Positions 1 to 57,965 of a stretch of DNA of 57,965 nucleotides are shown in pieces. The DNA is from a virus. The stretch spans positions 1 to 57,965 of the IMG/VR virus record IMGVR_UViG_3300028398_000001. The stretch is one strand, 5' to 3'. A model generated the notes under the pieces. That model ran no database searches. It saw nothing but the letters and a program-made list of their open reading frames with translations, and was not told the DNA's origin. The translations under genes and the position numbers were made by a program. How positions within the stretch are numbered: position 1 is the stretch's first letter; the number at the start of each line of letters is the position of its first letter.

Positions 1-127
1 CAACTACATCGGAAATCTCAATCAAAGAGCCATACTGCTCTAATGTTGCTGTAATATCAGTCTTTGTTAACTGCATAGAGTTAGGAGTTACACCCTCTGT
101 CAAAGGTGTAGTAGCAAGAGGCAGAGA
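1..127. repeat. Terminal direct repeat, copy 1 (circular closure)
   Basis: Identical to the last 127 bases of the window. The shared length of exactly 127 and its position in the middle of the capsid gene point to an assembler overlap on a circular or circularly permuted molecule, not to a biological long terminal repeat. Confidence 0.93.
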
Positions 128-289
128 GTTATATCTCCTGAAGATTATAGATTTTGTCTCATTTTTAGGAATAGGTTTTGCCTGTAAGAACTTTTCAAGT
201 GTTAATAGAGGCATACCTCTTTCAAGTAATTCTTTTGCAACATAAGCAGCCGTTCTTGGAGAAATATCTCCATAAGTAGTCATAGCCAT
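1..289 (-). CDS. Major capsid protein, N-terminal part (N4-gp56 family)
   Basis: First 96 codons of the capsid gene; the rest lies at 57141-57838 after closing the circle, giving 328 residues. The ATG at 289-287 follows a GGAGG ribosome site. The N-terminus reads MAMTTYGDISPRTAAYV and then contains ERGMPLLTLEKF and a KPIPKNETK stretch, which is typical of the N4-gp56 capsid family, whose HK97-like subunits form the icosahedral shell. The frame continues exactly across the contig ends (2 bases left over at 57838 plus 1 at position 1). The gene lies directly downstream of the scaffold gene in the minus-strand virion operon. The family call rests on motif resemblance and gene order. Confidence 0.9.
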   Translation of the reverse strand, partial: MAMTTYGDISPRTAAYVAKELLERGMPLLTLEKFLQAKPIPKNETKSIIFRRYNSLPLATTPLTEGVTPNSMQLTKTDITATLEQYGSLIEISDVV

Positions 290-292
290 TTT

Positions 293-1255
293 TTATCCTC
301 CTTCACGCAAAGCTTCTTCAAAAGCCTTTTCAAAGTCATTCATATCAGGTGGTGGCACTCCTTCAGGAGATTTAGTCCTGGTTTGAGGAGTGGGTTTAGG
401 CTTTGGTTTAGGCTTTTGAGTAGCTTGTGTTTGTATTTTTTTATCTCTTTTAAATTCGTTTAACAAAGCAATAACCTCATCCGCAGTGCCTTCCTCAAGG
501 ATTTCCTTATAGGTTTGAGCTATCCTTGCAGGCATAGTCTCAATCCACTGGTTAAGCTCATCACTTCCAATATACTGCTCAAAATCTGGATGAGCTTCTC
601 TAATAGCATTAATATGCTGCTGAAGCTGCGTTTCCATAACTGTTTCTTCAACAGGTTTGTATTTTTCCTCAACCTGCTGTAAGAGCATTTGCATAGCTTG
701 AGACACAGCCACAGTATATTTTTCCATAACTGACTTAATACTACCTTCAACCAAATTCGCAACTTCTGGAAATTCCTCCACAAGTTCAGATAACTCTGGA
801 TTTTCTTTGATGGCTTCAGATACCCAAGACATATCGGGTTTAGGAACTTCTTTGGATGTCTGTTCATTATTTTGAACAGTATTATCTGGCTTCTGTTCTT
901 CCTCCTGTTGAGATTTACCAGATAACTCTTGAAGCTGTTTCTTAAGTTCCTCAATCTCCTCTTTTTGAGATTTAAACATTCCCTGAAGAGTTTTATACCT
1001 CTGTAAGATAAGAGCAGGGTCTTCAATGTCATCTTCAGTAGTAGTCTCATCTTCAGTAGTGGTATTCTCTTCTTCAGTAGTAGTTTCATCTTCATCTGTT
1101 GTAGTTTCTTCAGTGGTGTCTTCAGTGTTTTCATTTCCTTCAGGGACTTCCTCATTTTCAGTGTCTTGGGTTTGTTCAGGATTTGGATTTTCCTCCTCCT
1201 GATTTTTGTTTACCCCTGTAGCCTCATCAAAGAAATCCTCAATAGTCTTATCCAT
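293..1255 (-). CDS. Scaffold-like acidic protein
   Basis: 320 residues. Residues about 20-80 are almost entirely Glu, Asp, Thr and Asn with repeated TTTED/TTEDE units. A coiled-coil Glu/Lys/Gln stretch follows (about 85-125), then a helical middle and a Lys/Pro-rich KPKPKPTP linker before a short amphipathic C-terminus. This is the usual build of a phage head scaffolding protein, and the gene sits between portal and capsid as scaffolds do. Two ATGs are adjacent (1258 and 1255). The second has the better distance from the AGGAGG site, so I use it. No protease domain is visible. The role is inferred from composition and order. Confidence 0.75.
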   Translation of the reverse strand: MDKTIEDFFDEATGVNKNQEEENPNPEQTQDTENEEVPEGNENTEDTTEETTTDEDETTTEEENTTTEDETTTEDDIEDPALILQRYKTLQGMFKSQKEEIEELKKQLQELSGKSQQEEEQKPDNTVQNNEQTSKEVPKPDMSWVSEAIKENPELSELVEEFPEVANLVEGSIKSVMEKYTVAVSQAMQMLLQQVEEKYKPVEETVMETQLQQHINAIREAHPDFEQYIGSDELNQWIETMPARIAQTYKEILEEGTADEVIALLNEFKRDKKIQTQATQKPKPKPKPTPQTRTKSPEGVPPPDMNDFEKAFEEALREGG

Positions 1256-1286
1256 CATTCCTCCTTCTGCCTACCTTTAATATAGG

Positions 1287-1475
1287 TTAGGCAAGTAATC
1301 TCAAAAGTTTTCTATATGCCTTAATACTGCCCTGAATGAAAGCGATTTCATTTTGGGCAGCAGTTTCCAGTGCATTTCTTTCATCTTCAATTAGCAGCTC
1401 CAATAAATCCTTAAGTTTGTATTTCAAGTTGTCCTCTTTTATTAATGTAATTAACTCACTCTTGTCCTTACTCAT
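1287..1475 (-). CDS. Small helical protein between portal and scaffold
   Basis: 62 residues, charged and predicted helical (KYKLKDLLELLIEDERNAL and QGSIKAYRKLLRLL segments), no cysteines. Starts at 1475, overlapping the end of the portal gene by a few bases, so the two are probably translationally coupled. Not recognised. Its place among the head genes suggests a small head-assembly or portal-associated protein, but nothing in the sequence fixes this. Confidence 0.6.
   Translation of the reverse strand: MSKDKSELITLIKEDNLKYKLKDLLELLIEDERNALETAAQNEIAFIQGSIKAYRKLLRLLA
1337..1350. repeat. Dispersed palindrome, site 1
   Basis: TGAAAGCGATTTCA inside the 62-residue gene between portal and scaffold; exact match to the dispersed consensus TGMAAKCRATTKCA. 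Confidence 0.75.
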
Positions 1476-3361: not shown

Positions 3362-3379
3362 AGATTTCTCCTTACATTA

Positions 3380-4828: not shown

Positions 4829-4844
4829 CCAAAAAACCCCACTA

Positions 4845-4858
4845 TGAAATCAATTTCA
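4845..4858. repeat. Dispersed palindrome, site 2
   Basis: TGAAATCAATTTCA in the short gap between the terS-like and terL genes, overlapping the terS stop region. Exact match to the consensus. Confidence 0.75.
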
Positions 4859-5260: not shown

Positions 5261-5415
5261 AACACTAAATCAATACCAACTAACAGCATAGTTGTCAAGT
5301 TTAAACTACCTCCAGAACCCTCATTCGGGTATTTTCAGTAGGGTGATTTACCCAGAGTTAATTTCTTTGCAAATGCTGTTATAAAGCCAATAACTAAAAA
5401 TCGGTAAAAAAAATC

Positions 5416-5979: not shown

Positions 5980-6062
5980 AAGAGGTTAATGTTGCATCAT
6001 CATCACGGGGGGATGAGGGAATTTGGGGCATATAGCCCCCTGCTGATATAAGAATTCTTTTT

Positions 6063-6162: not shown

Positions 6163-6245
6163 TAAAGTTAAAAAAATTTTAGTAATGTTAAAAATATGCG
6201 GTTGTTATAAGTTTATAGCGTTTAAAAACTGCTGATTTTTGGCAA

Positions 6246-6562: not shown

Positions 6563-7048
6563 AACTCAACCCCCTTCAAAAAAGTTTTTTTGGCTCTTTC
6601 AAGCCTGCCACAGGATAGCAAAAAAAAGTTTAATTGTCAAAAATGGCGATAGGACAGGAATTTTTGAAAAGCTTTCTTATTAAAAGAGAGATTAAGATAT
6701 TTATAAAGTTATAAACCTGCTCAATTTAGTATACTATATAACATATATATTTTTAGAAATCAGCCGAAATCTTGGAATTTTTTATTTAATACGGGGATAG
6801 GTTATTTTTTTGAACGGCTCAAACCTGCGGGATTTTTTTGGGATATAAAAGATATGATATTAGATTTAGTAGATATGAGATAACTGGAGCGGCGGGTTTG
6901 TTGTTGGCGTTGGAACGGCGGTTTTTGGAAATTTGACAGGTGGGTTGGAGTTTGGTAAGCTGATGGCAAGCTTGTTGGAGCAAGCCAGTGCAAGCGATTG
7001 CACAGTTTGCTTTTAACAAGCAAAAAAATTTTATTTGGGAGGTTTAAG
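6563..7048. other. Non-coding leader of the plus-strand block
   Basis: No convincing gene. It holds an AT-rich, promoter-like stretch (TATACTATATAAC at about 6730-6742) without a good -35 box, a GC-richer patch (about 6880-6990), an extra TTGACAGG at 6933-6940 and dispersed palindrome site 3 at 6989-7002. The promoter for the first plus-strand genes is probably here. Confidence 0.5.
6988..7003. repeat. Dispersed palindrome, site 3
   Basis: GTGCAAGCGATTGCAC, symmetric except for the two central positions, 46 bases upstream of the first plus-strand gene. Exact match to the consensus and intergenic. Confidence 0.8.
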
Positions 7049-9790: not shown

Positions 9791-10161
9791 AGTTATTTGT
9801 TTATGGAACGCTAAAGAGGGGTTGGGGTAACCACAGCCTTATAAAAGAGGCTGATGGTAAATTTTTATACAAGGATTTTACTAAAGACAAATTTTGCTTA
9901 TCAACTGTAGGGTTTCCGTATATGTTTAGGTGTGCAAGCGATTGCACTTATAGGGGTTATGTGCTTGGAGAGGTATATTTAGTGCCAAAAACTAAAATAT
10001 ATCTCATAGATGCATTGGAAGGTCATCCTGAATGGTATAACAGGGAGATAATAGAACTTCAAAACGGAGATAAAGCTTGGGCATATATTATGCCAAGCTT
10101 TGATTGCCAGCATTACGAGGGAGAAATTATTAAGCCATATAAAGACAAATTAGAATTTTAG
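9787..10161 (+). CDS. Gamma-glutamylcyclotransferase-like protein
   Basis: 124 residues. The N-terminal LFVYGTLKRG (3-12) is the hallmark of the GGCT/AIG2-like fold, which binds gamma-glutamyl compounds. The usual catalytic Glu is matched by the E in IDALEGHPEWYNR (about 78-90), also a family hallmark. Members release 5-oxoproline from gamma-glutamyl amines. Next to two amidoligases this gives a plausible 'make and remove' pair. It ends the core operon; a 52-residue gene follows 12 bases later. Dispersed palindrome site 4 lies inside the gene. Confidence 0.88.
   Translation: MKLFVYGTLKRGWGNHSLIKEADGKFLYKDFTKDKFCLSTVGFPYMFRCASDCTYRGYVLGEVYLVPKTKIYLIDALEGHPEWYNREIIELQNGDKAWAYIMPSFDCQHYEGEIIKPYKDKLEF
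9932..9947. repeat. Dispersed palindrome, site 4
   Basis: GTGCAAGCGATTGCAC inside the cyclotransferase gene, where it is read as part of Cys-Ala-Ser-Asp-Cys-Thr. All 16 bases match site 3. Confidence 0.8.
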
Positions 10162-10989: not shown

Positions 10990-11204
10990 GACTTGAGAAT
11001 TTAGAAAGGGCTAAAGATTATCTATCTTTAGCCAAATTCTATACCAACCAAACTGGTATAGATAGCGATATTGTTGACGCTATTGATGAAATTATGGATG
11101 AGATAGAGTTTAGAATGGAGCAGCTGGAAGAAGAACTTGGCTATAAGCCGAGAAAATATATTGAAATAGAGGAGGATGAAATTTATGCAAGTGAAGACTA
11201 TTGA
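10977..11204 (+). CDS. Small acidic helical protein, 75 residues
   Basis: MERLRLENLERAKDYLSLAK, then IDEIMDEIEFRMEQLEEELG, a probable helical hairpin, and an acidic IEIEEDEIYASEDY tail. Ribosome site AAAGGAGTGGAGA. Overlaps the neighbouring genes on both sides. Not recognised. The acidic tail recalls small phage proteins that mimic DNA or bind host enzymes, but there is no specific support. Confidence 0.55.
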   Translation: MERLRLENLERAKDYLSLAKFYTNQTGIDSDIVDAIDEIMDEIEFRMEQLEEELGYKPRKYIEIEEDEIYASEDY

Positions 11205-11781
11205 AAGAAAGAAAAGCAAAGAGATTGATGAAATTGAGGAGTTAAGGGAAAGTATTAAAAAAAGGATTAAAGAAATAGATAAAAACTGGGTAGATATATC
11301 ATTAGATTTATGGTATATCTACCAAGATGATATTTATTATATCTGGGGTTATGAAAGATTTAAAGATTATATTGAAGATGAGCTTGATGTAGGATACAGA
11401 ACTATAGCCTATAGAGTGAAAATTGGCAAGGCTATAGAACAGTATAATATAGATAAGAATATTATATCAGAAATAGGTTGGAGTAAGTTTAAGGAACTAT
11501 TGCCATTTTTATCTCCTTCAAAGAAACGGAATGAAATATTATTTAAAATGGCAATGGAAATGAGTTTAAGGGAATTACAGGCAAAACTAAAAAAACCAAC
11601 AGAAAAGGAGGTGAAAAGGTATAGTTTTAGCTTTAATATGGAACAGGCAGAGATTATTGAAAAGGCTTTAAGTCTTGGGGGTAGTATGTTAGGAACAACG
11701 GATAAAAGCAGAATTCTTGAGGCAATTTTAAGCGATTGGTTAATGAATAATTTGGAAGAGAAAGGAGAAAAAGATGGCTAA
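11185..11781 (+). CDS. Putative DNA-binding protein
   Basis: 198 residues from ATG 11185, placed 9 bases after a GGAGG; an ATG 9 bases earlier overlaps the site itself. The order is: charged N-terminus, IWGYERFKDYIEDELDVGYR and TIAYRVKIGKAIEQY (about 48-85, helices suggestive of a helix-turn-helix), a middle with LSPSKKRNEIL and MSLRELQAKLKKP, and a C-terminal segment YSFSFNMEQAEIIEKAL...SRILEAIL like a dimerising helix pair. Related proteins of this layout occur in phage and plasmid replication or regulation regions. It could be the binder of the dispersed palindrome, but that is a guess. Confidence 0.5.
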   Translation: MQVKTIERKKSKEIDEIEELRESIKKRIKEIDKNWVDISLDLWYIYQDDIYYIWGYERFKDYIEDELDVGYRTIAYRVKIGKAIEQYNIDKNIISEIGWSKFKELLPFLSPSKKRNEILFKMAMEMSLRELQAKLKKPTEKEVKRYSFSFNMEQAEIIEKALSLGGSMLGTTDKSRILEAILSDWLMNNLEEKGEKDG

Positions 11782-12162: not shown

Positions 12163-12183
12163 GGCAAGGCTTTTTGCCTTGCC
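12163..12183. terminator. Perfect stem-loop between coiled-coil gene and AAA+ gene
   Basis: GGCAAGGC-ttttt-GCCTTGCC, an 8-bp perfect stem with no T-run after it on the plus strand and TTTT-A on the minus strand. It may pause or process the transcript rather than end it. Confidence 0.5.
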
Positions 12184-12208
12184 ACTTATAAAAAAGAAAG
12201 GAGATAAT

Positions 12209-13549
12209 ATGATTTTAGATATGTATAATAGTATTATTTGGATAAATAGCAAGGATTTTGCAGGTAATATTTTAGCAATTAGCAAAGAAATAAAGGAATT
12301 CAACAAGAAAGATTATAAACATAGCAGTTGCCTTTATATCAGAAGATATGGATTGGAGCTATATTTATATAGCTTAAATTATGGATTTTATTTAGTTGAT
12401 GGAGTAAAGGATAAAAAAACTGGTGAAATATTTAAAAGCTTAATAGATTTTAATCACAGCGGAGTTTATATTTTTAAAGATATTGACAAAATATTAGAGC
12501 TTGATGAGCGTTTAAAACTAAAATTCTGGGATTATATAGCTAATAATTATACCAAGTTTAAAGAAAATTGCATAAAAATAGTATTTATAGGCGATTTAAA
12601 CACTGTAACGGATGAAGTAAGGGATTTGTTAATAAATATTGATACAAAAAATCAGGTTAATGAAATTAAAGATGAGATTTTTAATGCTAATAAGATTAAA
12701 AAATCGGATAGAATGCGGCTGATTAATTTTAACACTGCAAAAATATTAACTTTACTGAATTCAAAAATAAAATACTATCCTAATTCAAGCTTTTTGATAC
12801 CTGTAAAAAGTGAAATCACTTTCAACGAGGTTGGTGGCGTTCAAGATATTGAACAATACATAGAAATGTATAAAAAAGTTTACTTTAAAAAAATTAACAG
12901 ACTTAATTTATTATTAACTGGAGCAGCGGGAGTAGGAAAAACTATTACAGCTAAAGCAATTGCTAATAGTTTAGATTTGCCTTTGTATTTGGTGGATATG
13001 GGAAAGATTTTTAATAGTTTTTTAGGTAAAACGGAAGAAAACATAAGAAAACTATGGGATGAAATTAAATTAATATCGCCTGCAGTTATTTTATTTGATG
13101 AGATTGAGAAATTATTAGCAGGAGCAAGCAGCAGTAATGATAGCGACGCAGGAACAACGGCAAGAATTATGGGCTATATGCTTTATCAATTACAAGAGCA
13201 TAAAATACCAGCGGTTATAATAGGCACTGTTAACAACATTAAGGCATTGCCAGAGGAATTTTTTAGAGAGGAAAGATGGGATAAAATATTTACAATTACA
13301 ACAGCTTCAAAGGATTATATAAAAGATGTGGTGCGTAAGTATTTAATCAAAAATAATATTGAATTTGATGAGCACTCATTAGATAGAATAATACACTTTT
13401 TAAAGCTAAAAGGTTATATGACAGGAGCAAGGATAGTAAATACACTAAAGGATATAATATTTAGGATGGTGGCAAATGAAATACCTATAACGGCAATAAA
13501 CATAGTTGGCATATTAGAAAATGAAATATCAGGAGGTAATGATGTTTAG
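12209..13549 (+). CDS. Ycf46-like AAA+ ATPase
   Basis: 446 residues from ATG 12209 (AAAGGAGA site). The C-terminal AAA+ module starts at FNEVGGVQDIEQYIE (about 206-219). It has Walker A GAAGVGKT (238-245), Walker B ILFDEIEKLL (about 294-303), then TVNNIKALPEEFFREERWDKIF with the sensor Asn and arginine-finger region. The N-terminal 200 residues contain VYIFKDIDKIL and IKIVFIGDLNTV, resembling the degenerate first half of the Ycf46 family (AAA proteins of chloroplasts, cyanobacteria and phages). It probably remodels a protein or nucleoprotein complex. It lies just before two winged-helix proteins and the likely origin, so a role in initiation or helicase loading is reasonable but unproven. Confidence 0.82.
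   Translation: MILDMYNSIIWINSKDFAGNILAISKEIKEFNKKDYKHSSCLYIRRYGLELYLYSLNYGFYLVDGVKDKKTGEIFKSLIDFNHSGVYIFKDIDKILELDERLKLKFWDYIANNYTKFKENCIKIVFIGDLNTVTDEVRDLLINIDTKNQVNEIKDEIFNANKIKKSDRMRLINFNTAKILTLLNSKIKYYPNSSFLIPVKSEITFNEVGGVQDIEQYIEMYKKVYFKKINRLNLLLTGAAGVGKTITAKAIANSLDLPLYLVDMGKIFNSFLGKTEENIRKLWDEIKLISPAVILFDEIEKLLAGASSSNDSDAGTTARIMGYMLYQLQEHKIPAVIIGTVNNIKALPEEFFREERWDKIFTITTASKDYIKDVVRKYLIKNNIEFDEHSLDRIIHFLKLKGYMTGARIVNTLKDIIFRMVANEIPITAINIVGILENEISGGNDV
12811..12824. repeat. Dispersed palindrome, degenerate site
   Basis: TGAAATCACTTTCA inside the AAA+ gene; one mismatch to the consensus at the centre. Confidence 0.45.
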
Positions 13550-13994: not shown

Positions 13995-14439
13995 GCAAAA
14001 TATTAAAGCAGCTGTTATCTTTGCTTTTATAAAATCAGTTTATAGTTTGGAAATAAAAGGTTTGGATAAAAAATCTATATATCTGAACCTTAAAATCAAC
14101 AAGAGAACAGCATATAAATATATAAATTATTTATACAACACGGGATATATTACAGAAGATTTAAAACCAAATGAAGAAACTGGCGATTATATATTCTATC
14201 AAGCCAGAATTTTCTTACAAGGATTGGAATTTAAAGATTTACAAGTAATGTTTTCCATTTACTACTTTAGAAATTACTACAGCAATGAGCTCTATCCTTC
14301 AACACAATCACTTTTAAACATAGCCAGAGTAAGAAAAGCAAATCTATTTAGAATTTTAAACAAACTTGAGGACAAAAAATTAATTGAAAGATATTTTAAA
14401 GATGGGAAAAGAATAATAAAAGTAAGGGAGATAAAATGA
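13963..14439 (+). CDS. Putative replication initiator with two winged helices
   Basis: 158 residues. The first helix-turn-helix is DKKSIYLNLKINKRTAYKYI followed by NYLYNTGYI (about 28-60). A second similar unit is QSLLNIARVRKANLFRILNK followed by LEDKKLIERY and a wing (about 112-150). Two winged helices in tandem, with an iteron array starting 160 bases downstream, is the layout of many plasmid and phage initiators. The stop codon at 14437-14439 overlaps both the ATG of the next reading frame and a palindrome site. I infer the initiator role from this arrangement; no family match is visible. Confidence 0.5.
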   Translation: MKVKMNRKIVEQNIKAAVIFAFIKSVYSLEIKGLDKKSIYLNLKINKRTAYKYINYLYNTGYITEDLKPNEETGDYIFYQARIFLQGLEFKDLQVMFSIYYFRNYYSNELYPSTQSLLNIARVRKANLFRILNKLEDKKLIERYFKDGKRIIKVREIK

Positions 14440-14987
14440 AATCGATTTCTTATGAGGTAATCTTTAAAACACCTACACTCATCGCAGGCAAACAGAAAAA
14501 TGAAGTTTCTGTTCGTATTCATACCATCGGTATAAAAGAGAACACCCTTAAATTTGAAAAACGAATGCAAAGCACCTGTGATGTCATAGAAGGAGCAGCT
14601 GGGTGCAAAAGGGATACCTCGACCCCTGTTTTGGGTGCAAAAGGGATACCTCCCGAGTGCAAAAGGGATACCTCGACCCACCCTTCTGGGTGCAAAAGGG
14701 ATACCTCGAGACCCCCTTCGGGTGCAAAAGGGACACCCCGAACATATTATAAGATTTTAAAATCTTTTATAAATAAATTTATAAAATTCTTTAAAATCTT
14801 ACTACCCCACCCACCACCCTATGAAAATTTCTTAAAAAGAAATTTTGACATTGAGGTGTTTAAAGAAGAAGAGAAGAAGAAGACCTCTGTAAGAGCAGCA
14901 AGATTGTTTAAGATTTTTTATTTTTCTTTTTGTGCCAGTGATTTAGTTATTTATGTAAATTACAAAACTTATTTGGAGGTGATTTAA
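14436..14987 (+). CDS. Doubtful reading frame across the iteron region
   Basis: An open frame of 183 codons with a GGGAG site 5 bases before its ATG. The first 50 residues look protein-like, but residues about 56-102 are merely the translation of the iterons (repeated GCKRDTS units) and the next 20 of an AT-rich tract. It may be a short real gene whose 3' part is origin DNA, a gene carrying the origin inside it as in lambda O, or no gene. Overlaps the preceding stop by 4 bases and the next start by 1. Confidence 0.3.
   Translation: MKSISYEVIFKTPTLIAGKQKNEVSVRIHTIGIKENTLKFEKRMQSTCDVIEGAAGCKRDTSTPVLGAKGIPPECKRDTSTHPSGCKRDTSRPPSGAKGTPRTYYKILKSFINKFIKFFKILLPHPPPYENFLKRNFDIEVFKEEEKKKTSVRAARLFKIFYFSFCASDLVIYVNYKTYLEVI
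14437..14450. repeat. Dispersed palindrome, near-consensus site
   Basis: TGAAATCGATTTCT at the edge of the origin region; one mismatch at the last base. It overlaps the initiator-like gene's stop codon. Confidence 0.55.
14601..14741 (+). repeat. Five iterons, core GGGTGCAAAAGGGATACCTC
   Basis: Copies start at 14601, 14633, 14655, 14688 and 14720, with steps of 32, 22, 33 and 32 bases, close to 3, 2, 3 and 3 helical turns. The first four share TGCAAAAGGGATACCTC exactly; the fifth has GGGACACCCC. Between copies lie short ACCC-n-GGGT inverted repeats, such as CACCC-ttct-GGGTG. This GC-rich block is in sharp contrast to its surroundings and is a strong candidate for initiator binding sites. Confidence 0.85.
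14748..14805. other. AT-rich unwinding element beside the iterons (candidate origin)
   Basis: Nearly pure A+T for about 55 bases directly after the fifth iteron. It includes the perfect palindrome AAGATTTTAAAATCTT and two TTTATAAA elements. Iterons next to an AT-rich unwinding element and ahead of helicase and primase genes form a textbook origin layout. Confidence 0.7.
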
Positions 14988-15389: not shown

Positions 15390-15551
15390 ATGTTGAAATC
15401 GACTACAAGGGGGTATATTTGCCCTCTATTGAGTTTTATACTCAAATTCGATGAATTATACATTTTTATTAAAAAGTCTTCAAATAGACCCCTTACTTTT
15501 GAGTATAGAGGATTTGAGGAGGTAAGTTATGGAATTTTTGGAGATGGTTAA
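15390..15551 (+). CDS. Possible small protein, 53 residues
   Basis: Open frame MLKSTTRGYICPLLSFILKF and on to GFGDG-like end, with AAGGAG 9 bases before the ATG, ending 23 bases inside the next gene. Most of its length coincides with nested inverted repeats (15423-15511), so the sequence may instead be a structured leader of the next gene. Confidence 0.3.
   Translation: MLKSTTRGYICPLLSFILKFDELYIFIKKSSNRPLTFEYRGFEEVSYGIFGDG
15394..15407. repeat. Dispersed palindrome, degenerate half-site
   Basis: TGAAATCGACTACA: left half matches the consensus, right half has two mismatches. It lies in the gap after the 133-residue gene. Confidence 0.35.
15423..15511 (+). promoter_or_regulatory. Structured leader before the 130-residue gene
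   Basis: CCTCTA (15423-15428) pairs with TAGAGG (15506-15511), and TATACTCAAA (15437-15446) pairs with TTTGAGTATA (15498-15507). A competing local hairpin TTGAGT-tttat-ACTCAA (15429-15445) and an AAGGGG/CCCCTT pair (about 15407 and 15489) overlap these. The ribosome site GAGGAGG follows within 10 bases. Alternative pairings right before a ribosome site suggest translational control. Confidence 0.45.
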
Positions 15552-18065: not shown

Positions 18066-18086
18066 AGTTTGAGAAACTTTTTTAAG
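18066..18086 (+). terminator. Weak hairpin with T-run before the SSB ribosome site
   Basis: AAGTTT-gag-AAACTT followed by TTTT, then AAGGAGG. A terminator-like or attenuator-like hairpin directly in front of the start of the SSB gene; the stem is AT-rich, so its strength is doubtful. Confidence 0.35.
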
Positions 18087-18095
18087 GAGGTTTTT

Positions 18096-39100: not shown

Positions 39101-42100
39101 TCTGCTAACTTTAGCAAATAAACTATGTATAATATTATTATCAGCAAACCACTTTTTATTTACAGCAAATAAAGCAAATTCATCTGCAGCTTTTTCATAC
39201 CAAGCTCTTGTATCATTTTTACCATATTTTTTATTCAAGTAATCTTTCAATACTCTTAAGTCTTCTTCTGGTATTAAACCAAGCTCATCAAGGGTATGAA
39301 ATATCTCGTGATAGAAAGTAGTTCCAAGTTCTTTTAAATTTTTATCTGACATTAGAATTATAGCAGAAACTGCTTTTTTATCTAATAAGGTTGCTCCTTC
39401 TAATCTCTTTTTCATTAAATCCAATAGCTGACTATCAGTCAAATGGAAAGCAAATATTTTATAACCCTGCAGAAGGGCTTTTTCTACCATCTTTCTTCCA
39501 CCTAAATCTTCTAATGTAAGCTTATCAATGGATTTTACTTTTACCCTTTTAGCTATATCTTTTCCTAACAGCTGCTCAACTGCTTTATTTACATTTATTC
39601 CAAAATGTTTTTTCAATAAGTAATGAATACTATCTTCACCATATTTCAAATCTTCGTATATTTTCTTTTCATTATCATTTAGTTTTAATCTCAATAGTTT
39701 TTCTTTGAATTTTTCACCCCCATCAGTTAGAGCTCTCATATGCCACCAGCTTAATATCTTTAGTGAGGATTTCATATTATCAACTGAAATTCCTTTAGAA
39801 ACCTGCTCTTTTCTTGCTTCGTATAATTCAGTTATCTCATCTCTAAATTCAGGGTCTTCTTTAATATCTTTAATTTGATTTGGTTTAAATCCAGCATTTT
39901 CTAAATAGCTATCCAAAGTCTTTAAAACAGCTGGACTTAATTCAGGTGGAGGCTCAACATAAAAAACTAATCCTTGTTTTTTATTTCCCTTTACTATGGA
40001 TTTTTCTGATTTAGCTATAAATGTTCCCTTTTCATAAGTTATATTAACTTCATCTTTTGCTAATAGGTCATATCCTAAATCAACATTTGATAGATGGTTT
40101 AATATTTCATTTATTTCTTCTGGTGTATATTCTTTTGCTTTTTCTTCAATTTGTTTTTTATCTATGGCTTCATTAAGTTCCTCTGGAGTTTTAGGAATAA
40201 CAACATCTTTATCTTCTATTTTTGGCTCTGGTTCTTTAAAATCATGTAAACCAAAAGCAGCAATTGGTTCATCGTTATGATAGAGAGCTAAAATACCTGT
40301 ATCTAATAATTTCATTTTATTAGCTTGTGGTCTGGCTATTTCAAAATACTTTCCATCAACTTTAAAGCTATAGCCCTTTTCAGTATCAAATTTATAGAAT
40401 TTGCCATCTTTTCCTTTAAAGTTTATTTTAGTATCAAGTGTTTTATTTGAGTTTAATAAATCTTTGAAACTCTTATCAAAACTTCCACCAAGTGGTTTTA
40501 TATCTTTCATTAATTTCTTATGATAAATAGATTGACTTTTTCTATCATACAAATATCCATCTGTGGTTTCTAAAATATTTTGTCTATAGGATATAGACTT
40601 CATACTACTTTTGCCAGATTTTAATCTATGCTCCTTTGGTATTTCTATTCTATCTTTTAATGGTTTTAATTTAGATATTGGTTTTGATACTGTCTTTATA
40701 TTATATGTATCCCCTAATATTGTAGGAACAGCAGCTCCAATATACTTGTTATCTTTTTTAATATAGATTAATGAAGAATTAGCATTGCTATCAATTTCTA
40801 ATGAGAAATTCTTAACCCTGGATTTTATAGTTTTTAGAGCTTGTTTTGAAATACCTATTTCTTTACCATCTTCACTTCGTAATACTAAAATATTTGGATT
40901 TTCTTTTACTTCACCTATTATACCTGTAATCTTTGAAGCCTTTTCTGGTTTCAATTCCAAATTCTGACCAATAGATTTTGGTTTTATTCCTTTAAAGAAA
41001 TCCTTATGTAAAGCTATAGTTCTATCTGTATTTACTACTAATCCATTGTCAGTAATTTCTGGCTCTTTATCAAACTTTGCAGATTTAATATTTTTTAAAT
41101 CAAGCTTATCAATAGGAGTTATTTCTTCAGAATTTTTAGTTTCTGGTAAAGGTTGCTCTGTAGCTACATTATTTTTTATTTCTGGTTCAGGTTGTTTTAC
41201 AGGTTTTTCATTTATAATCTCTTTTGCAATATTTAACTTATCAGTGAAATTGATTGCACTTTTTGGAGCAGGTAAATTAGCTTTTTCCTTAACTGCAGGC
41301 AGATTTTCTTCAATCCCTTTGTTTTCAATTGCTGGATATTTTTCCCCTTTATCTTCAATAGCCTTTTGTTTAAATCCTAATTTTTCTTCTTCCTTATCAA
41401 GTTTCTGTTTTAATATAGAAGTAATTTTTGCTTTAAGTTCTTCTCTCTTTTTAATATCCTTTATAGTTTTTGGCAGTGCTTCTAACAATGCTTTTGCTTT
41501 AATTACATTACCAAGTAATTTATTGTCATTTCTTGAAGAAGTTAATTTATCTATATCATCAAGTATTGGTTTAACCTTATCCTTTGATATTTTAGATTTG
41601 GTAATTAGTTTATTGGCTTCCTTAAGTATTAAATCATTAGCTGATTGTTTTATATCATTTATAGCCTCACCTATATTCTTGTTCTTTGGAGCTTGCTCTT
41701 TTAGCTGCAAACCTTTTTCTATGAATGTATCTATATTATCAACAGTTATTTTGGGTATAGTGTTTTTATTTGGCATACCTAAAATAACAGCTGTTGCCAT
41801 TTTCTTTGAATAATCTTCTGGCTTTATATTGCTACCATATTTTTCTAAAATATCTAAATCATCATAGCCTGCTGTGTTCAAAACTTTTATAGCTTTTTTT
41901 GGTTCTTTCTTTATTAAATCAGAATATAGACCTTTATCAAATGCAGTTTTAATAGCAGTGATATGTCTAAAATCATCCTTCTTTGGAGTGGATAGTAATT
42001 TATCTTTGTATTCATTTAATACTTCTTCAGGATTATAAGGCTGTTCATATTTTGTTTCTTTTATGTTATTTGTAGGAACTGGCAGATTTTCTGTAATAGG

Positions 42101-43977: not shown

Positions 43978-45797
43978 TATTGTCCCTCACTTTCTATAAT
44001 TTTTTCAACTTGTGATACAGCGGCATTTAAACCTGCTAAAGCAGAAGAAGCTAATGCAGCATAAATCTGACCACCACTTTCTGCAGCTCTCTCTGCTATT
44101 TTAGAATTTTCAATCATAGCAGTTATATTAGCTTTAGCAGTCTCTAAATCAATAAGTGCCTGTGATTTTTGCTGCTCTAACAATAGCTCTTTTGATTTTA
44201 TATCAATAAATGCTTTGTTCTTCTCTATATCTGCTTTTAGATTTTCTAATGAAAAATATGATTTAGAGGCTTCTGTTAATCCTATGATTTTACTCTTATT
44301 TATATCTGCCACAGTTTTATCTTTTTCCAATTTAGCCATATATTTATCTATTTCAAATTTATTTTTTTGAATGGCAGCATCTATTTCTTTCATTCTTATG
44401 TCAAGAGCAGTTTTCTTTAACTGATTTTTATTTTCAATAGCTGCAGCTTTTGCTTTATAGGCATCTATTTTAGCCCTAAAGGCATTTACCTTTGCAAGAT
44501 ATACATCAACTTTTTTAAGAGATGCATTTAATTTGGAAACTTGACCTTCTATCAAAGTTCTATATGCCAGTATTCTATTTGCATTATTTTGGCTTACCAT
44601 ATTTAAAGCTTCAATTTTAGATTTATAAATATCTATTTTAGACTTTACTGCTTCTATTTGTGATAGATAAACTTTTATAAGATTATCATTTAGGGATGAT
44701 GTAGCATTAAGAGCTTCTATTTGTGATTTAAACATTTCTAATTTCTGTAAATTAGATTTCAGTTTTATATCAAATAGATTTATCTTCTCTTGAGCAGCTT
44801 TTATTAAAGTATTGTATTCAATTACTTTCATATTATAAATACTAATTCCACTCTCAACTAAATATTTTGATACTTCAAGTGCTCTATTATAATACTCTGA
44901 ATAATATTGCATTCTTGATTTTTCTAAATTAATACCACTGTTAATGGCATTGTTTATATTTTCCCTTCTAATTTTAGCTTCCTCTATGGCTATATCCCTG
45001 GATAAATCCATTCTTTTGTTTTCCCAGTCTTTAAGCAAGTTCTCAACTTTTTGGTCTGCAAGTCCATTAGGTAAATCAAATCCTCTTGAAGCCCATAAAT
45101 CTAAAGTTTCATTTATAGTTTGGTGCAATACTTCTAAATCTCTTTCTTTAGACCTATCAAACATTTCTCTTTCTGGTAGAAGTGTTCCACCATCCAAATT
45201 AGTATTTATGGCATCTTCAAGTTTGTTATATAAATTTGAACTGTATTCATTTTCACTATAATCAAAATGTAAATCTGGCAGTATTGCATTAAAGTCTGGT
45301 ATATTAACATCTAAACTTAACATATCTAATGTTGGCATATCTGGAATGTTTATATCTTTCAATGTAGGTATATCAGGTAAATTTACCTGTGGTGCTTGAG
45401 GTATAGGACTTTCATCCAGATGAGGCATATCTGGAAATGAAATATTTGTATTTATATTTTCATTGAATTCAGGTGCATTTTCATTAAAGGTATCTATATC
45501 TTCAGGAGAAAAATCACCTATAGTAGGTAATGGAGAAAAATTAATATTATCAGGAACATCTATATTAAATGAAGAAACTAACTCCTTAATTGAATTAATT
45601 ATATCTTGTAAATTGCCAGTATCCAAATTTGAATTTAATTCAGCACCAGAAACAGATAGTGGTCTTCCACCACTAATATATGGTGCAGATGAATGACTAA
45701 TGTCAACAAGTCTATTTAAATAATCTAATCCATCATTTAGTATATCATTTGCAGTCGATTGCATTGTTGATATTGTTGTTCCAACATCTACATTCAT
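43977..45797 (-). CDS. Long coiled-coil virion protein
   Basis: 606 residues. Residues about 1-190 are Pro/Asp/Asn-rich with repeated PDIPTL/IPDMPTL-type units. From about 215 to the end it is an almost unbroken coiled coil of KxxID/KSKIEAL heptads (NASLKKVDVYLAKVNAFRAK and similar). A rod with an Ala-rich GGQIYAALASSALAGLNAAV end. It could be an internal core protein ejected with DNA or a tail rod. Contains a palindrome site near its 5' end. Confidence 0.5.
   Translation of the reverse strand: MNVDVGTTISTMQSTANDILNDGLDYLNRLVDISHSSAPYISGGRPLSVSGAELNSNLDTGNLQDIINSIKELVSSFNIDVPDNINFSPLPTIGDFSPEDIDTFNENAPEFNENINTNISFPDMPHLDESPIPQAPQVNLPDIPTLKDINIPDMPTLDMLSLDVNIPDFNAILPDLHFDYSENEYSSNLYNKLEDAINTNLDGGTLLPEREMFDRSKERDLEVLHQTINETLDLWASRGFDLPNGLADQKVENLLKDWENKRMDLSRDIAIEEAKIRRENINNAINSGINLEKSRMQYYSEYYNRALEVSKYLVESGISIYNMKVIEYNTLIKAAQEKINLFDIKLKSNLQKLEMFKSQIEALNATSSLNDNLIKVYLSQIEAVKSKIDIYKSKIEALNMVSQNNANRILAYRTLIEGQVSKLNASLKKVDVYLAKVNAFRAKIDAYKAKAAAIENKNQLKKTALDIRMKEIDAAIQKNKFEIDKYMAKLEKDKTVADINKSKIIGLTEASKSYFSLENLKADIEKNKAFIDIKSKELLLEQQKSQALIDLETAKANITAMIENSKIAERAAESGGQIYAALASSALAGLNAAVSQVEKIIESEGQ
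45750..45763. repeat. Dispersed palindrome, near-consensus site
   Basis: TGCAGTCGATTGCA at the 5' end of the coiled-coil gene; one mismatch to the consensus. Confidence 0.5.
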
Positions 45798-47480
45798 TTA
45801 CCTTCTCCTTTTATTTATATTATACCCTATAACACTTATATTATCAATTGTTCCCCTTTTTATATAAATACCAAATGAGGCATATCTGCTTTTGATACCC
45901 TTTGGTAATTTTACTCTTGTTTCAAGAAAATCACTATATCTATTACTTTCTAAATCTATACTATTATTATCTATAAGATATTTTACAGCTGTAGTTGTAT
46001 CACCTGAAATAAATAATTCTATAGGTATTGCAATACTATTGCTTCTTATATCTAAAGTTTTTGTTTGTATATAACCTGTTAGATTACTATTACTTTCTAA
46101 TTTAAATGTTCCATCATTATTTGATATAATAGAACCATTATAAAAAACTGATGCTATATTATTTTTTATAAAATTGTATTCAGTTATAGCTAAATTGTAT
46201 TTATTTATAGCAATGGTTTTATCAAAGACTTGGAGATTATCAGCTAAAATAAATCTTGAGTTTATTCTATTCAAAGTAATATTTAATGATGCTGGTTCAA
46301 AAGGACTTAAGTTTGTATTAAATCTAATAGAGGGTGTTCTTAAAGATAAATTGCCAGTATGTCCTAAATTAAGTCTAAATCTACCATTGGGTTGTCTCAT
46401 ACCCAATGCAAGCGATTTCACATTAGACGATAGTAATTTACTACTAAATACTAATCTATTGGTATTTAGTAATAAATCAGCACCTAATGAAGTTAAACTT
46501 TTTGCTTCAAAATCAAAAGTATTTTGTATTCTTCCATATATTGTTAGTCTATTTCCTACATTAACATTAATTATAGAATTTAGTTTTAACTTAATAGTTG
46601 TTTCTAAACTATTTCCACTGGAAAATTTTGCATAGACAGATGGTAGTTTTAAATTAAGTCCTAATGCTACATTTGTCTTTAGTTTTAAAGAGCCTTCTAT
46701 TTTATGTAAATTACCATCTATTGTATCTGAATTACAATATAAATCTAAATTAGATGTTATGCCTTTAGAGAGTGTAGCTTTTAAATTTACAGGAAATCTT
46801 TTTGGTAAGCTTATGTGATATACACCTGTAGCATCTGAAACTACAATTCCATTTTCAAACAGACTTAAATCAAGAGGCTTTTTTAAAAAATGATTTCCAG
46901 CAGAAACCAAAAACTCATAAAAAACAGCATTTTCTTTTATAAATAAGGATATATTATCACTATCATAGTTGGCTACTGCTATAAGGTAATTATTGTATAT
47001 AACAATTCCTTTTGGATTTGATAAAAATCCATTACCAAATTCATATATGTAATTACCTTTTAAATCAAATACTTGAACTCTATTATTACCACTATCTGTT
47101 ACATATAAATATGTTCCATCGTTGGCTATTCCATAAGGATATTTAAATTCACCTGCACCACTTCCATATTTACCAAATTCAAAAACAAAATCACCATCAT
47201 AAGTAAAAGCCTGAATTCGATGGTTATTGCTATCAACTACATATACATACGGAAATATACTGGCTCTAAATCCTATAAAAGTTTTAATCTTATCCCTTAT
47301 TAAAATTGTGGAAGGCTTAAATAATTTTATAGAAGTATATTCACCTATTTTGAATAGGGCTTCTGGTCTATTATTAGGCTGTAATCCAGCAGATAAATGG
47401 TTCTTATGATGAAATTTTCTTACAACACCACCAGTTATTTTTGTTTTTACTATAAAAGCCCAGGGTTGGATTGTTGGCAT
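45798..47480 (-). CDS. NHL-repeat beta-propeller virion protein
   Basis: 560 residues. Residues about 75-210 carry NHL repeats: YVVDSNNHRIQAFTYDGDFV, EFGKYGSGAGEFKYPYGIA, YVTDSGNNRVQVFDLKGNYI. The rest is a long beta-rich region with repeated L-N-L-K strands and ends in RYASFGIYIKRGTI. NHL propellers bind proteins, RNA or glycans. The setting among tail genes suggests adhesion. It starts at 47480 beside a 215-residue tail protein. The end matches the C-terminal part of the 422-residue gene in style (NHL-like). Confidence 0.6.
   Translation of the reverse strand: MPTIQPWAFIVKTKITGGVVRKFHHKNHLSAGLQPNNRPEALFKIGEYTSIKLFKPSTILIRDKIKTFIGFRASIFPYVYVVDSNNHRIQAFTYDGDFVFEFGKYGSGAGEFKYPYGIANDGTYLYVTDSGNNRVQVFDLKGNYIYEFGNGFLSNPKGIVIYNNYLIAVANYDSDNISLFIKENAVFYEFLVSAGNHFLKKPLDLSLFENGIVVSDATGVYHISLPKRFPVNLKATLSKGITSNLDLYCNSDTIDGNLHKIEGSLKLKTNVALGLNLKLPSVYAKFSSGNSLETTIKLKLNSIINVNVGNRLTIYGRIQNTFDFEAKSLTSLGADLLLNTNRLVFSSKLLSSNVKSLALGMRQPNGRFRLNLGHTGNLSLRTPSIRFNTNLSPFEPASLNITLNRINSRFILADNLQVFDKTIAINKYNLAITEYNFIKNNIASVFYNGSIISNNDGTFKLESNSNLTGYIQTKTLDIRSNSIAIPIELFISGDTTTAVKYLIDNNSIDLESNRYSDFLETRVKLPKGIKSRYASFGIYIKRGTIDNISVIGYNINKRRR
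46407..46420. repeat. Dispersed palindrome, site 12
   Basis: TGCAAGCGATTTCA inside the NHL-repeat gene. Exact consensus match. Confidence 0.75.
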
Positions 47481-56126: not shown

Positions 56127-56768
56127 TTAAGGAAATCCAAATCTTTTAGTGCTTGCCATAACTGTATGAACATTACCTCCAAATTTTTCCCTACGCATAG
56201 CTTTAAGAGTTCTATTTTCTCCAAATTTACTATTGAACATTGCCAAAAATTCCGCAGCTTTTTGCATATCAGAAACATCCAAATCTTGTTTTAAAAGAGC
56301 ATTCCCAGCTATATAATAAGCCAAATACTTTTGATATTTTTCTGGTATCTCAAAACTAACAGTTGTTTGAGGATACACTGATGCAATCAATTTCACTTCA
56401 TAATCTCTGTCTGGAATAGGATAAAATATAATGCTACTATCGTCTATAAATGAGTATTCTACAGGAAGTCCTTTAGCATTATAATGCTCTATGTTAGCAA
56501 GGTTAACCTGCAAAATCTCATAAGTAGAATTCTGATAGTTTACAAACATTCTAATAGGTTTAATAATATCATCAGATAAAGTATAAGTATCCACACCTTC
56601 TTGAGTGTGCAGTATGATGGTTCTTATTATAAGGGATGCTCTTATACAAGCTTCTTTTTCAGCTTCAAGAGCCAAATTAGTTAGAAAATCATCGCTCCAA
56701 AAATAGGGCTCTATGGTATCATCTAAAAAATGCTCTCTTGTGTAATCAACTAATTCTGATACAAGCAT
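56127..56768 (-). CDS. Head-tail adaptor-like protein
   Basis: 213 residues. LVDYTREHFLDDTIEPYFWS, then EAEKEACIRASLIIRTIILH and a long helix-rich end (LAYYIAGNALLKQDLDVSDM, AAEFLAMFNSKFGENRTLKA). These follow the podoviral head-tail adaptor family (first segment 'LV...R..L.D...PY.WSD..L...l.EA..eA..R'). It joins the portal ring to the tail. Contains palindrome site 13. Confidence 0.68.
   Translation of the reverse strand: MLVSELVDYTREHFLDDTIEPYFWSDDFLTNLALEAEKEACIRASLIIRTIILHTQEGVDTYTLSDDIIKPIRMFVNYQNSTYEILQVNLANIEHYNAKGLPVEYSFIDDSSIIFYPIPDRDYEVKLIASVYPQTTVSFEIPEKYQKYLAYYIAGNALLKQDLDVSDMQKAAEFLAMFNSKFGENRTLKAMRREKFGGNVHTVMASTKRFGFP
56382..56395. repeat. Dispersed palindrome, site 13
   Basis: TGCAATCAATTTCA inside the adaptor gene. 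Exact consensus match. Confidence 0.75.
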
Positions 56769-57088
56769 TATGTTTCAGTATTTATTTTTCTTTTGTTCAC
56801 TACCTTATCTCCTTTAGTAGCCTCTCCTAAAACTCTTACAGGAAATCTTTTAACTTTGTAGGAAACAGTATTACCCTTACCATCATATTTATACTTCGTA
56901 TAGATAGCTTCTTCAAGTGCATTCACAACAAAGCCTTCTACTACAACTTCTTGATTTCTTACTATCTGATACTGTTTACCATTAACACCTACAAATACAT
57001 CTGTATTACCATCAACACCACCCTGCTCATCAATAATTATCTTATATAATTTAGTAGGGTCAATTTTCAGTGGTTCATTAGAAGCCAT
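56768..57088 (-). CDS. Hypothetical head protein after capsid
   Basis: 106 residues. LKIDPTKLYKIIIDEQGGVD and QYQIVRNQEVVVEGFVVNAL suggest a small beta barrel; basic end KVVNKRKINTET. Ribosome site GGAGG. It follows the capsid gene, where decoration or head-completion proteins are usual. Not recognised. One-base overlap with the adaptor gene. Confidence 0.58.
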   Translation of the reverse strand: MASNEPLKIDPTKLYKIIIDEQGGVDGNTDVFVGVNGKQYQIVRNQEVVVEGFVVNALEEAIYTKYKYDGKGNTVSYKVKRFPVRVLGEATKGDKVVNKRKINTET

Positions 57089-57104
57089 AATTTACCTCCA
57101 TTAA

Positions 57105-57135
57105 TTTTAAATAAAATAAGGGGGATTAACCCCCT
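57105..57135 (-). terminator. Terminator after the capsid gene
   Basis: On the minus strand AGGGGG-ttaat-CCCCCT, followed by TATTTTATTT. It sits between the capsid stop and the ribosome site of the next gene, so it probably lets only part of transcription go on, giving more capsid than downstream proteins. Confidence 0.8.
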
Positions 57136-57140
57136 ATATA

Positions 57141-57965
57141 TTAAAGCTCTGTAGCTGCAACTTCAGCAACTGCCATCCAAGCGTCATTTAGAATAACAGC
57201 TGTAGAATAAGTCTTCCAACCCATAAATCCTCTCTGACCTAATGGGTCAGATTTAGATGGTTTAGGATTAATAACTGTAGGTGTAATAGCATTAGCACCT
57301 TTAAGTGCAACTGTAGCAGCTGCATTCTTACCCAAGAAGATTATAGGATAGACATCAGCTTTTGTTCCAGAAGTAGTAATCATACTACCAGCCGTTCCAC
57401 CAGCATCAGGATAAGGCTCAAAGATATTAGAAAGAATAAATCTTACATATCCAACAGAGCCAATTTCACCCTCAAGAGGCTGTGTATTACCATAATCCTT
57501 AACATCAATAAAGCCCTGCAATGCTCTAATATCATTTTCAAGGTCAGTATGTCCAAGAGCAATGTAAGCTGGCAAGATTGCCTGTGTTCCAAATGCTGGA
57601 GTTGATTTTACAATAGAAGTAATCATCTGGGCATTCTGTCTCTTAAGTGCTCTTACAATCTTCTTTACAAGGTTTGCAGAAATAGGAGTATTAACATCAG
57701 CTCTTGTTGCTCCATTAGAATAGAACTTATTAGTGCCTGCAGTTAAAATACCCCATCTTACAGCTTCCAATGTCTGTGCTGCCTGCTCACCTAATATCTG
57801 CACGCCTTCCTGAATGATAGGGTCTTCGTGAGTATCAGCAACTACATCGGAAATCTCAATCAAAGAGCCATACTGCTCTAATGTTGCTGTAATATCAGTC
57901 TTTGTTAACTGCATAGAGTTAGGAGTTACACCCTCTGTCAAAGGTGTAGTAGCAAGAGGCAGAGA
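57141..57965 (-). CDS. Major capsid protein, C-terminal part (N4-gp56 family)
   Basis: Bases 57839-57965 repeat bases 1-127; the unique part is 57141-57838. It reads LTEGVTPNSMQLTKTDITAT, LEQYGSLIEISDVVADTHED, EQAAQTLEAVRWGILTAGT and RALKRQNAQMITSI, then YIALGHTDLENDIRAL, GEIGSVGYVRFILSNIFEPY and a final GWKTYSTAVILNDAWMAVAE. All are recognisable N4-gp56 capsid segments. The gene has its terminator downstream. Together with the 1-289 part it forms one uninterrupted 328-residue frame. Confidence 0.9.
   Translation of the reverse strand, partial: SLPLATTPLTEGVTPNSMQLTKTDITATLEQYGSLIEISDVVADTHEDPIIQEGVQILGEQAAQTLEAVRWGILTAGTNKFYSNGATRADVNTPISANLVKKIVRALKRQNAQMITSIVKSTPAFGTQAILPAYIALGHTDLENDIRALQGFIDVKDYGNTQPLEGEIGSVGYVRFILSNIFEPYPDAGGTAGSMITTSGTKADVYPIIFLGKNAAATVALKGANAITPTVINPKPSKSDPLGQRGFMGWKTYSTAVILNDAWMAVAEVAATEL
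57839..57965. repeat. Terminal direct repeat, copy 2
   Basis: Identical to bases 1-127. The true circle ends at 57838. Confidence 0.93.

Follow-up and report, generated by a model that had tools for sequence, protein, structure and literature searches.

A dispersed palindrome in a virus genome and in related phages, and a predicted ParB/Noc-type protein that accompanies it

The virus record IMGVR_UViG_3300028398_000001 from IMG/VR (57,965 bases, analyzed over its entire length and hereafter called the window) carries a palindromic DNA element in about 18 dispersed copies, a set of sites that we confirm to be real. Palindromes that share the build TGNAAN-NN-NTTNCA are dispersed in 19 further phage records, and these relatives retain the type of site but neither its letters nor its positions. 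We consider it probable that the palindromes are the predicted binding sites of a 201-amino acid phage-encoded protein (family phrog_17202; window positions 11176..11781, plus strand), and that they form a genome-wide marking array that organizes the phage DNA. A function in organizing or labeling phage DNA during infection fits the data best, and a transcriptional role is its main rival.

Palindromic Sites of the Window

The window has a G+C content of 29.6%, and a 127-bp terminal repeat at both ends of the contig is consistent with the 57,838-bp circle assumed in an initial annotation of this DNA. The pattern TGMAAKCRATTKCA has 13 exact sites, all of them where that annotation had placed them: TGAAAGCGATTTCA at 1337..1350 and 15967..15980, TGAAATCAATTTCA at 4845..4858 immediately 5' of the terminase gene, TGCAAGCGATTGCA at 6989..7002 and 9933..9946, TGCAATCGATTTCA at 17986..17999 (exact on both strands, and hence counted twice among the 14 rows for 13 sites), TGCAAGCGATTTCA at 19975..19988 and 46407..46420, TGAAAGCAATTTCA at 23108..23121, TGAAATCAATTGCA at 25950..25963, TGCAAGCAATTGCA at 31083..31096, TGAAATTGATTGCA at 41245..41258 on the minus strand, and TGCAATCAATTTCA at 56382..56395. 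Four more of the listed sites deviate by one mismatch, as had been claimed, and are called by a position matrix built from the sites; these are TGAAATCACTTTCA (12811..12824), TGAAATCGATTTCT (14437..14450), which covers the start codon of the open reading frame (ORF) at 14436, TGAATTCGATTGCA (37793..37806) and TGCAGTCGATTGCA (45750..45763). The site TGAAATCGACTACA at 15394..15407, previously described as degenerate, has two mismatches and falls below the matrix threshold.

The earlier list of about 17 sites thus holds for the sites it contains, but it had overlooked two with one mismatch each: the asymmetric site at 30008, and the matrix-called site TGAAATTAATTGCA at 25892..25905, which covers the start codon of the 25891 gene and lies 58 bp ahead of the site at 25950. 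Altogether, the matrix makes 19 calls in the window, namely the 13 exact sites, the 4 one-mismatch sites, 25892, and a doubtful site at 9203 that may be false. Sites on start codons (ATGAAAACGTTTTCA reads MKTFS) occur at the terminase ORF of the related contig G009 and at the window ORFs 14436 and 25891.

Dinucleotide-preserving shuffles of the window yield a mean of 0.04 exact sites and never more than one, as compared with the 13 observed; the previous chance estimate of 0.01-0.02 was of the right order for exact matches. When up to two mismatches are allowed, 47 rows are found in the window, and the shuffle mean is 11.4. The majority of the sites lie within ORFs, in differing reading frames. 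Shuffles of synonymous codons (n=500), which left the bases outside the listed ORFs unchanged and thus partly retained sites that lie partly outside ORFs, gave 1.6 exact sites on average and 4 at most. These codon-preserving shuffles, together with the mixed reading frames, rule out protein coding as the cause of the sites, a view that the initial annotation had already taken.

The Site Class in Related Phages

Relatives of the window were collected from viral contigs by means of their terminase, polymerase and DnaB proteins, regardless of the motif. Across the 20 records that carry the dispersed palindrome, 6-71 copies were called per record with matrices that had been seeded with patterns picked after a de novo scan and with thresholds taken from reversed sequence, and some of the called sites may be false. 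Nineteen of these records (window included) are complete or near-complete and encode a phrog_17202 protein; the twentieth is the 23-kb fragment G001. The word complete is used loosely here, as PaMx31 is labeled partial and G009 is without an end repeat, and three of the records, RHph_I4, DLP5 and TM16, have close kin among the others. The initial annotation had named as a point against a dispersed site set that related phages might keep the proteins while losing the sites; the opposite is found, since all 19 protein-bearing records possess the motif class.

The fragment G001, whose terminase is 75% identical to that of the window, contains TGAAATCAATTTCA five times and six sites of the form TGAAAT-2-ATTTCA. 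In G009 and G011 (polymerase 36% and DnaB 35% identical), the form TGAAAA-2-TTTTCA occurs 14 and 25 times, respectively, versus 0.05-0.06 expected. Among the other relatives found through the terminase, G005 has two one-mismatch matches and the 4-kb G006 has one, and the fragments G002, G003, G004, G007 and G008 (9.6-13.9 kb) have none; G010, with a polymerase segment only 22% identical, has no match to the pattern TGNAANNNNTTNCA. In 16 protein-bearing phage records this pattern is found 52, 50, 32, 32, 30, 30, 29, 25, 24, 14, 11, 10, 7, 4, 3 and 3 times; the counts of 3-4 belong to Vibrio phage 1, LV6 and 29Fa.3, which have so few strict matches because their motif is a shifted form. Six terminase-relative controls without phrog_17202 give 0, 0, 2, 2, 0 and 0 matches, and the reversed pattern occurs 0-3 times per record in all 22. 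Three further controls without phrog_17202, chosen for a RecA-like protein, yield 1, 0 and 7 matches, and the seven are heterogeneous in a record in which the reversed pattern is found four times.

A palindrome scan that presupposes no consensus places the TGNAAN-NN-NTTNCA architecture at the top of the list in all 19 protein-bearing records and in G001. It stands out least in the window (Poisson 10^-7 from four copies), the record with the most degenerate sites, and in Vibrio phage 1 (10^-10.7). No near DNA match to window positions 1-20000 was found in the phage collection.

Within this common build, the phages carry different versions of the site: TGAAAACGTTTTCA in G009 and G011; TGCAACNNGTTGCA in L338C and RHph_I4, to which HJ05 adds an outer T and A; TGCAATYRATTGCA in DLP3, DLP5 and SIO-2; TGCAATCGATTGCA in RcKickapoo; TGCAARCGYTTGCA in PaMx31; TGCARTTAAYTGCA in KarBoss and VH2_2019; and GCAATTAATTGC in LV6 and 29Fa.3. 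When the class patterns were cross-tabulated against 29 sequences, TGAAAA-2-TTTTCA, TGNAAC-2-GTTNCA and TGCAARCGYTTGCA proved to be confined to their own lineages. The notion that all versions are private was ruled out, as TGCAATNNATTGCA is present in DLP3 (25), DLP5 (27), RcKickapoo (22), VH2_2019 (9), RcZahn (8), TM16 (3), and once each in Y1_11, SIO-2 and 29Fa.3; the degenerate pattern of the window itself also matches sites in DLP3, DLP5, RcKickapoo and a few others.

These distributions bear on the suggestion that the palindromes are sites for a host factor, e.g., a regulator of the LacI family, an explanation to which we attach the least probability of those considered here. The sharing of the TGCAATNNATTGCA class by Stenotrophomonas, Rhodobacter and Vibrio phages speaks in its favor, and TGNAANCGNTTNCA presumably resembles the consensus of the CcpA cre box. 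A host protein as binder is nevertheless disfavored because the site versions track the lineage of the phage and not the host: the TGNAAC class counts 50 sites in RHph_I4 and none in RHph_Y1_11, both of which are phages of Rhizobium phaseoli, and the Aeromonas phage HJ05 shares this class with 23 sites. RcZahn and RcKickapoo have the host strain YW1 and the site class in common and differ in the details of their sites, and the class accompanies a phage gene across six proteobacterial host genera.

Among the listed titles and abstract beginnings of the open literature (subscription journals lay outside this scope), we found no report of such sites in these phages, and a search with the motif strings matched no phage-related title. 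In the excerpted text of the DLP3 paper, no mention of the word repeat concerns these sites, and the same is true for the 12 of 15 mentions covered in the Rhodobacter phage paper (PMC8601537). As an observation in its own right, one of the control phages without phrog_17202, the Rhizobium phage RHph_TM3_14A (L126-L128), contains an unrelated dispersed palindrome, TTACCN-4-NGGTAA, in 26 copies versus 0.02 expected; other phages may thus use different binders in the same manner.

Conservation and Placement of Individual Sites

Closely related phages retain their individual sites to a striking degree. In DLP3 and DLP5, whose DNA is 84% identical, the alignment covers 34 of 35 sites; identity reaches 99.0% over the twelve specified bases of these sites, as compared with 83.8% for the flanks, and 31 of the 34 are fully identical, where the background is 0.22 (P 1e-17). 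The alignment of L338C with RHph_I4 covers 42 of 56 sites, 39 of which are identical (background 0.14; P 6e-30). G009 and G011 retain 3/3 sites, and Y1_11 and TM16 retain 5/10 (with 9/10 still called). More distant Vibrio pairs exhibit no clear positional conservation (1/4, 1/5 and 0/1 identical), and no site of the window falls into DNA alignable with G001, nor any site of VH2_2019 into DNA alignable with KarBoss. The strong identity in close pairs, with none that is clear in distant ones, therefore indicates that sites are kept in the short term and turned over in the long term, while the class persists.

Spacing of the sites is more even than random (P 0.01 or less) in 16 of the 20 records, with coefficients of variation of 0.38-0.74 versus about 0.95. 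This evenness, and the position of the sites relative to genes, are pertinent to the idea that the same protein acts on dispersed operators and represses or stops transcription genome-wide, as the L5 repressor does or KorB on RK2; we regard this as a possible explanation, yet one clearly less likely than a marking array. Enrichment of the sites in gaps, seen in 17 of 20 records (the ORFs being those of a simple caller, or the annotated genes in a single HJ05 run), would suit such operators. Against them stands the fact that 436 of the 662 called sites are centered in ORFs and 226 in gaps; in the window only one of 19 calls lies in a gap, although the gap share amounts to 13/26 in G011 and to 21/40 in VH2_2019, the only record in which it exceeds one half. 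Even spacing likewise argues against operators, and in HJ05 it persists after the sites have been re-dealt within gaps and genes separately, so that the gap layout is kept (P 0.0012). The 13 exact sites of the window taken alone reach an evenness P of 0.045.

A consistent orientation of the sites is also lacking, which again does not favor operators. Of 20 records, only Vibrio phage 1 (P 0.024) and LV6 (P 0.006) have the better half-site significantly more often on one side, both values being uncorrected. In the window, the asymmetric form AGCNAT is on the plus strand in 8/8 cases as judged by eye, regardless of gene direction, and the position-wise P is 0.039. As this bias is marginal when assessed position by position, and as the other genomes disagree, we treat the sites as symmetric.

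The phrog_17202 Protein as the Predicted Binder

The initial annotation had named no binder; its 11185 test candidate is the 11176 gene, whose product we propose here as the predicted one. This protein matches the PHROG profile phrog_17202 (E 3.4e-14, 54 bits, residues 45-196), a family without an assigned function, and all seven homologues submitted to PHROGs match the same profile. Homologues are encoded by G009 and G011 and were detected by tblastn in Vibrio, Aeromonas, Rhizobium, Rhodobacter, Stenotrophomonas and Pseudomonas phages. The family is present in the 18 other complete or near-complete motif records and absent from 7/7 controls. Searches for relatives among viral contigs gave none with the HJ05 protein and one contig with the VHS1 protein, and the alignment A1 recovers G009 and G011; a search of bacterial and archaeal genomes returned a single locus, which is on the same contig as G011. 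This phage contig (L149) is also found in a bin of Candidatus Cloacimonadota (isolate B8_G9), which may hint at the host or at mis-binning.

The protein is predicted to consist of a ParB/Noc-type DNA-binding domain (approximately residues 12-145) and a helical C-terminal part. Its AlphaFold2 model has a mean pLDDT (predicted local distance difference test) of 76, and among 66 chains aligned to it, the ten best structural matches are all DNA-binding domains of ParB, Spo0J or Noc (Z 9.7-7.5; the next match has 3.5), including 1vz0 (9.7), 4umk (9.4), 6y93 (8.8) and 7ol9 (7.7). When a Vibrio homologue was modeled, ranks 1-3 again went to Noc, Spo0J and ParB (Z 9.4, 9.2 and 9.1). A sequence-based search against known structures gave nothing useful, and a search of defense families with 3 proteins gave no match.

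Eleven of 19 records have a site 61-131 bp upstream of their phrog_17202 gene, as compared with 2.2 predicted from the full set of ORFs in these genomes (P 9e-7); the limit of 131 bp was picked after the distances were known, and for PaMx31 the start was set at the edge of the open frame, the true one probably lying some 15 bp further in. When three close relatives are left out, the figure is 8/16 (P 2e-4). Such upstream sites would be compatible with dispersed operators as well, and KorB, which is also ParB-like, silences genes from distal sites according to the excerpted text of one study (PMC11790492). The phrog_17202 homologue is not among the 21 DLP3 proteins identified in purified particles, as far as the excerpts of that report go (PMC7326821), so that the protein is probably intracellular.

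The predicted ParB-like fold also invites the view that the palindromes are centromere-like sites for the partition of a plasmid-like prophage, which we consider very unlikely. The lifestyle of two carriers would agree with it, as DLP5 was isolated as a phagemid (PMC7326821) and the VHS1 genome has been described as extra-chromosomal (PMC3148565), both according to partial accounts in these sources. For the RcF cluster, however, which includes the carrier RcDurkin, no evidence of lysogeny is reported in the excerpted text (PMC8601537), and this finding disfavors dispersed operators just as it does partition sites. Partners of a partition system were sought with PF02195, PF17762 and PF13614 in 15 of the 19 records (RHph_I4, TM16, DLP5 and KarBoss were outside the searched set). 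A ParA-type AAA_31 protein (PF13614) was found in 0/15 records and in 14/14 control genomes. The ParB_N CTPase domain (PF02195) has no match anywhere in the window, nor in G009, G011, Vibrio phage 1, RcZahn, LV6, SIO-2 and 29Fa.3; it occurs in 7/15 records, always away from the phrog_17202 gene, and the RcZahn record annotates two separate proteins with ParB-like nuclease domains. In addition, the sites are spread and not clustered. As the window has no ParB_N CTPase domain and ParA is absent from 15/15 records, both sliding clamps and classical partition are unsupported.

The Shared Replication-Recombination Core

Starting from window ORFs of at least 60 amino acids after removal of overlaps, iterated profile searches found nine families common to the 19 complete or near-complete records: phrog_17202, and eight families assigned to replication or recombination, all of which are encoded on the plus strand of the window. 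They comprise an AAA ATPase (12179..13549; PF00004, E 3.8e-24), a DnaB-like helicase (15926..17140; PF03796), a DnaG-like primase (17133..18032; Toprim and CHC2 zinc finger), a possible single-stranded DNA-binding protein (18069..18995), a DEAD/ResIII helicase (19032..20306; PF04851), a RecA-like recombinase (20526..21515; PF00154), a PD-(D/E)XK (Cas4-like) nuclease (21962..22828; PF12705) and a DNA polymerase (23427..25877; phrog_17, E 4.2e-119). The naming of the 18069 product is based on gene order, as a gp32-like protein is annotated between primase and helicase in RcZahn, and on its acidic C-terminal tail. A tenth family of 77 amino acids is present in 16 records. Structural proteins of the window were not found in 16 named phages, bar one weak case outside the core; since they are not shared, the motif travels with the replication-recombination module.

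One might hence suppose that the sites act directly in replication or recombination, i.e., in priming, loading or branch processing, and that another member of the core, for instance the AAA ATPase, binds them; we judge this to be unlikely. The presence of all nine families in 19/19 motif records is in line with it, and so is the fact that RecA and nuclease distances track the motif as well as those of phrog_17202 do. Seven of the other eight core families are enzymatic, however, and the eighth is the possible single-strand binder, whereas the 11176 protein has a predicted fold for sequence-specific DNA binding and nearby sites in relatives, two tests that among the core covered 11176 only. 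The RecA-chosen phages without phrog_17202 described above, with their sparse or heterogeneous matches, also argue against this explanation.

Weighing the Proposed Role

Several findings weigh against phrog_17202 as the binder and against a marking array as the function of the sites. With respect to the fold, the model of the Vibrio homologue has a pLDDT of only 59.5, and its matches include rows for the Rubisco accumulation factor Raf1 (Z 6.4-8.5) mixed with the ParB rows; the best PDB E-value for the fold obtained with Foldseek is 0.33, and according to the structural aligner, Z values below about 13 can reflect a common arrangement in helical proteins. The ParB helix-turn-helix domain HTH_ParB (PF17762) was detected in 0/15 records and in 9/14 control genomes. 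With respect to the gene, the 1.2 kb upstream of 11176 in the window are free of sites, and G009, G011, Vibrio phage 1, SIO-2 and 29Fa.3 have none within 590 bp upstream of their phrog_17202 genes. Co-occurrence with the motif does not by itself pick 11176, as it holds for every one of the nine core families; the 18069 product is likewise without a Pfam match. Distances of the phrog_17202 core correlate with those of the motif (r 0.65) about as well as those of the Cas4-like nuclease (0.69) and RecA (0.645) do, and the partial correlation given the other families is 0.25 for the phrog_17202 core and 0.03 for the helix-turn-helix region; a first co-variation run with a poorly aligned set gave 0.21. 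Co-variation does not separate phrog_17202 from RecA and the nuclease because motif distance is followed, more or less closely, by the majority of the core proteins. Finally, evenness of spacing falls short of significance in the window's own clade (the window itself with P 0.13, G001, G009 and G011), and the enrichment of sites in gaps also suits a role in transcription.

Comparison with Known Systems

The repressor of mycobacteriophage L5 stops transcription at its stoperators, which are asymmetric, oriented with transcription and located mostly in short gaps. Many copies of one short site over a phage genome and their recognition by a phage protein would be common to both systems; the sites described here differ in that they are symmetric, have no consistent orientation, and are centered in ORFs in two thirds of the cases.

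Among the palindromes recognized by ParB-type domains are parS and NBS, the latter with the sequence TATTTCCCGGGAAATA, according to the excerpted text of PMC7383237. The phage system shares with ParB/Spo0J-parS the predicted fold of the DNA-binding domain and palindromes composed of two half-sites; it differs from it by the absence of ParA and of an HTH_ParB match (15/15 records each) and by its dispersed sites, parS sites being clustered. With Noc, for which about 70 sites around the Bacillus subtilis chromosome are described in a partial account (PMC4331003), it has in common palindromic sites around the replicon and a DNA-binding domain that the predicted fold of the window protein matches. 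The Noc sites have another sequence (TATTTCCCGGGAAATA) and are tens of kilobases apart, as opposed to kilobases in the phages; furthermore, the window is without the ParB_N CTPase domain, and the setting is a phage genome with a protein tied to a replication module. KorB silences genes from OB sites on RK2, and resembles the phage system in being of the ParB type, in having several operators on a mobile replicon, and in acting as a regulator as well; in the excerpted account (PMC11790492), it is a CTP-binding clamp that works with KorA in promoter repression at another operator sequence, and the window lacks the CTPase domain.

A Putative Genome-Marking Array

We suggest that these phages encode a Noc- or KorB-like genome-marking system that, in the window, would operate without a ParB CTPase domain and without ParA. 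Judging from the structural model, the 11176 protein would bind the palindromes through its ParB/Noc-type helix-turn-helix domain, presumably as a dimer with one half-site per monomer. Dimers on about 18 sites in the window, and on 25-71 in the larger siphophage relatives, would then build up a genome-wide protein-DNA array with one complex per 1.3-4.4 kb on average. Because the protein travels with the replication-recombination module, the array most likely marks and organizes the phage's own DNA within the cell, in a manner akin to the marking of the Bacillus chromosome by Noc; it might compact or tether this DNA or draw in the replication machinery. Autoregulation of the phrog_17202 gene by its product is also probable in many relatives.

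Among the functions offered in the initial annotation, that of a nucleoid-protein-like site fits best, given the location of two thirds of the sites in ORFs, the even spacing in 16/20 records and the predicted ParB/Noc-like fold; a host factor is unlikely, and strict L5-like stoperators and a classic centromere were weakened. Beyond this, we tentatively envision a widespread and so far undescribed system in which a ParB/Noc-type protein without a CTPase domain, carried along with the conserved module by phages that differ in host and have unrelated structural genes, would bind evenly spaced palindromes throughout the phage genome, and in which co-diverging sites and proteins would give each lineage a self address by which replication, recombination or packaging distinguishes its own DNA from foreign DNA; we hold this extension to be appreciably less certain than the marking array itself.

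Other Features of the Window

Window positions 5300-6280 comprise approximately 1 kb without long ORFs between two divergent gene arms, and contain iteron-like direct repeats (three 32-nucleotide copies at 5888-5983, and TTGACAGG repeats at 6060-6160); this region is a candidate for an origin of replication or for a divergent control region. A cluster at 7343-10161 encodes a gamma-glutamyl cyclotransferase-like protein at 9787 (PF06094, E 4.1e-15), a neighboring protein starting with MCGI that we take to resemble class-II glutamine amidotransferases, and two proteins with GxEIEF-like motifs that are presumably akin to amidoligases; the 7343 and 8211 products have no Pfam match at 0.001. Among the late genes, the protein encoded at 34121-34672 has repeat units of about 24 residues (NNNFENNENYNDGFIYKLIDNPIT) arranged in tandem close to its end.

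Implications

The marking of replicons by dispersed sites is already known for bacterial chromosomes (Noc) and plasmids (KorB), and if the proposed binding is true, it extends to phage DNA. A so far unnamed family of phage proteins would thereby gain a function, along with 19 natural protein-site pairs of several specificities. The lineage-specific versions of the site would, moreover, allow a direct test of whether a phage labels its own genome.

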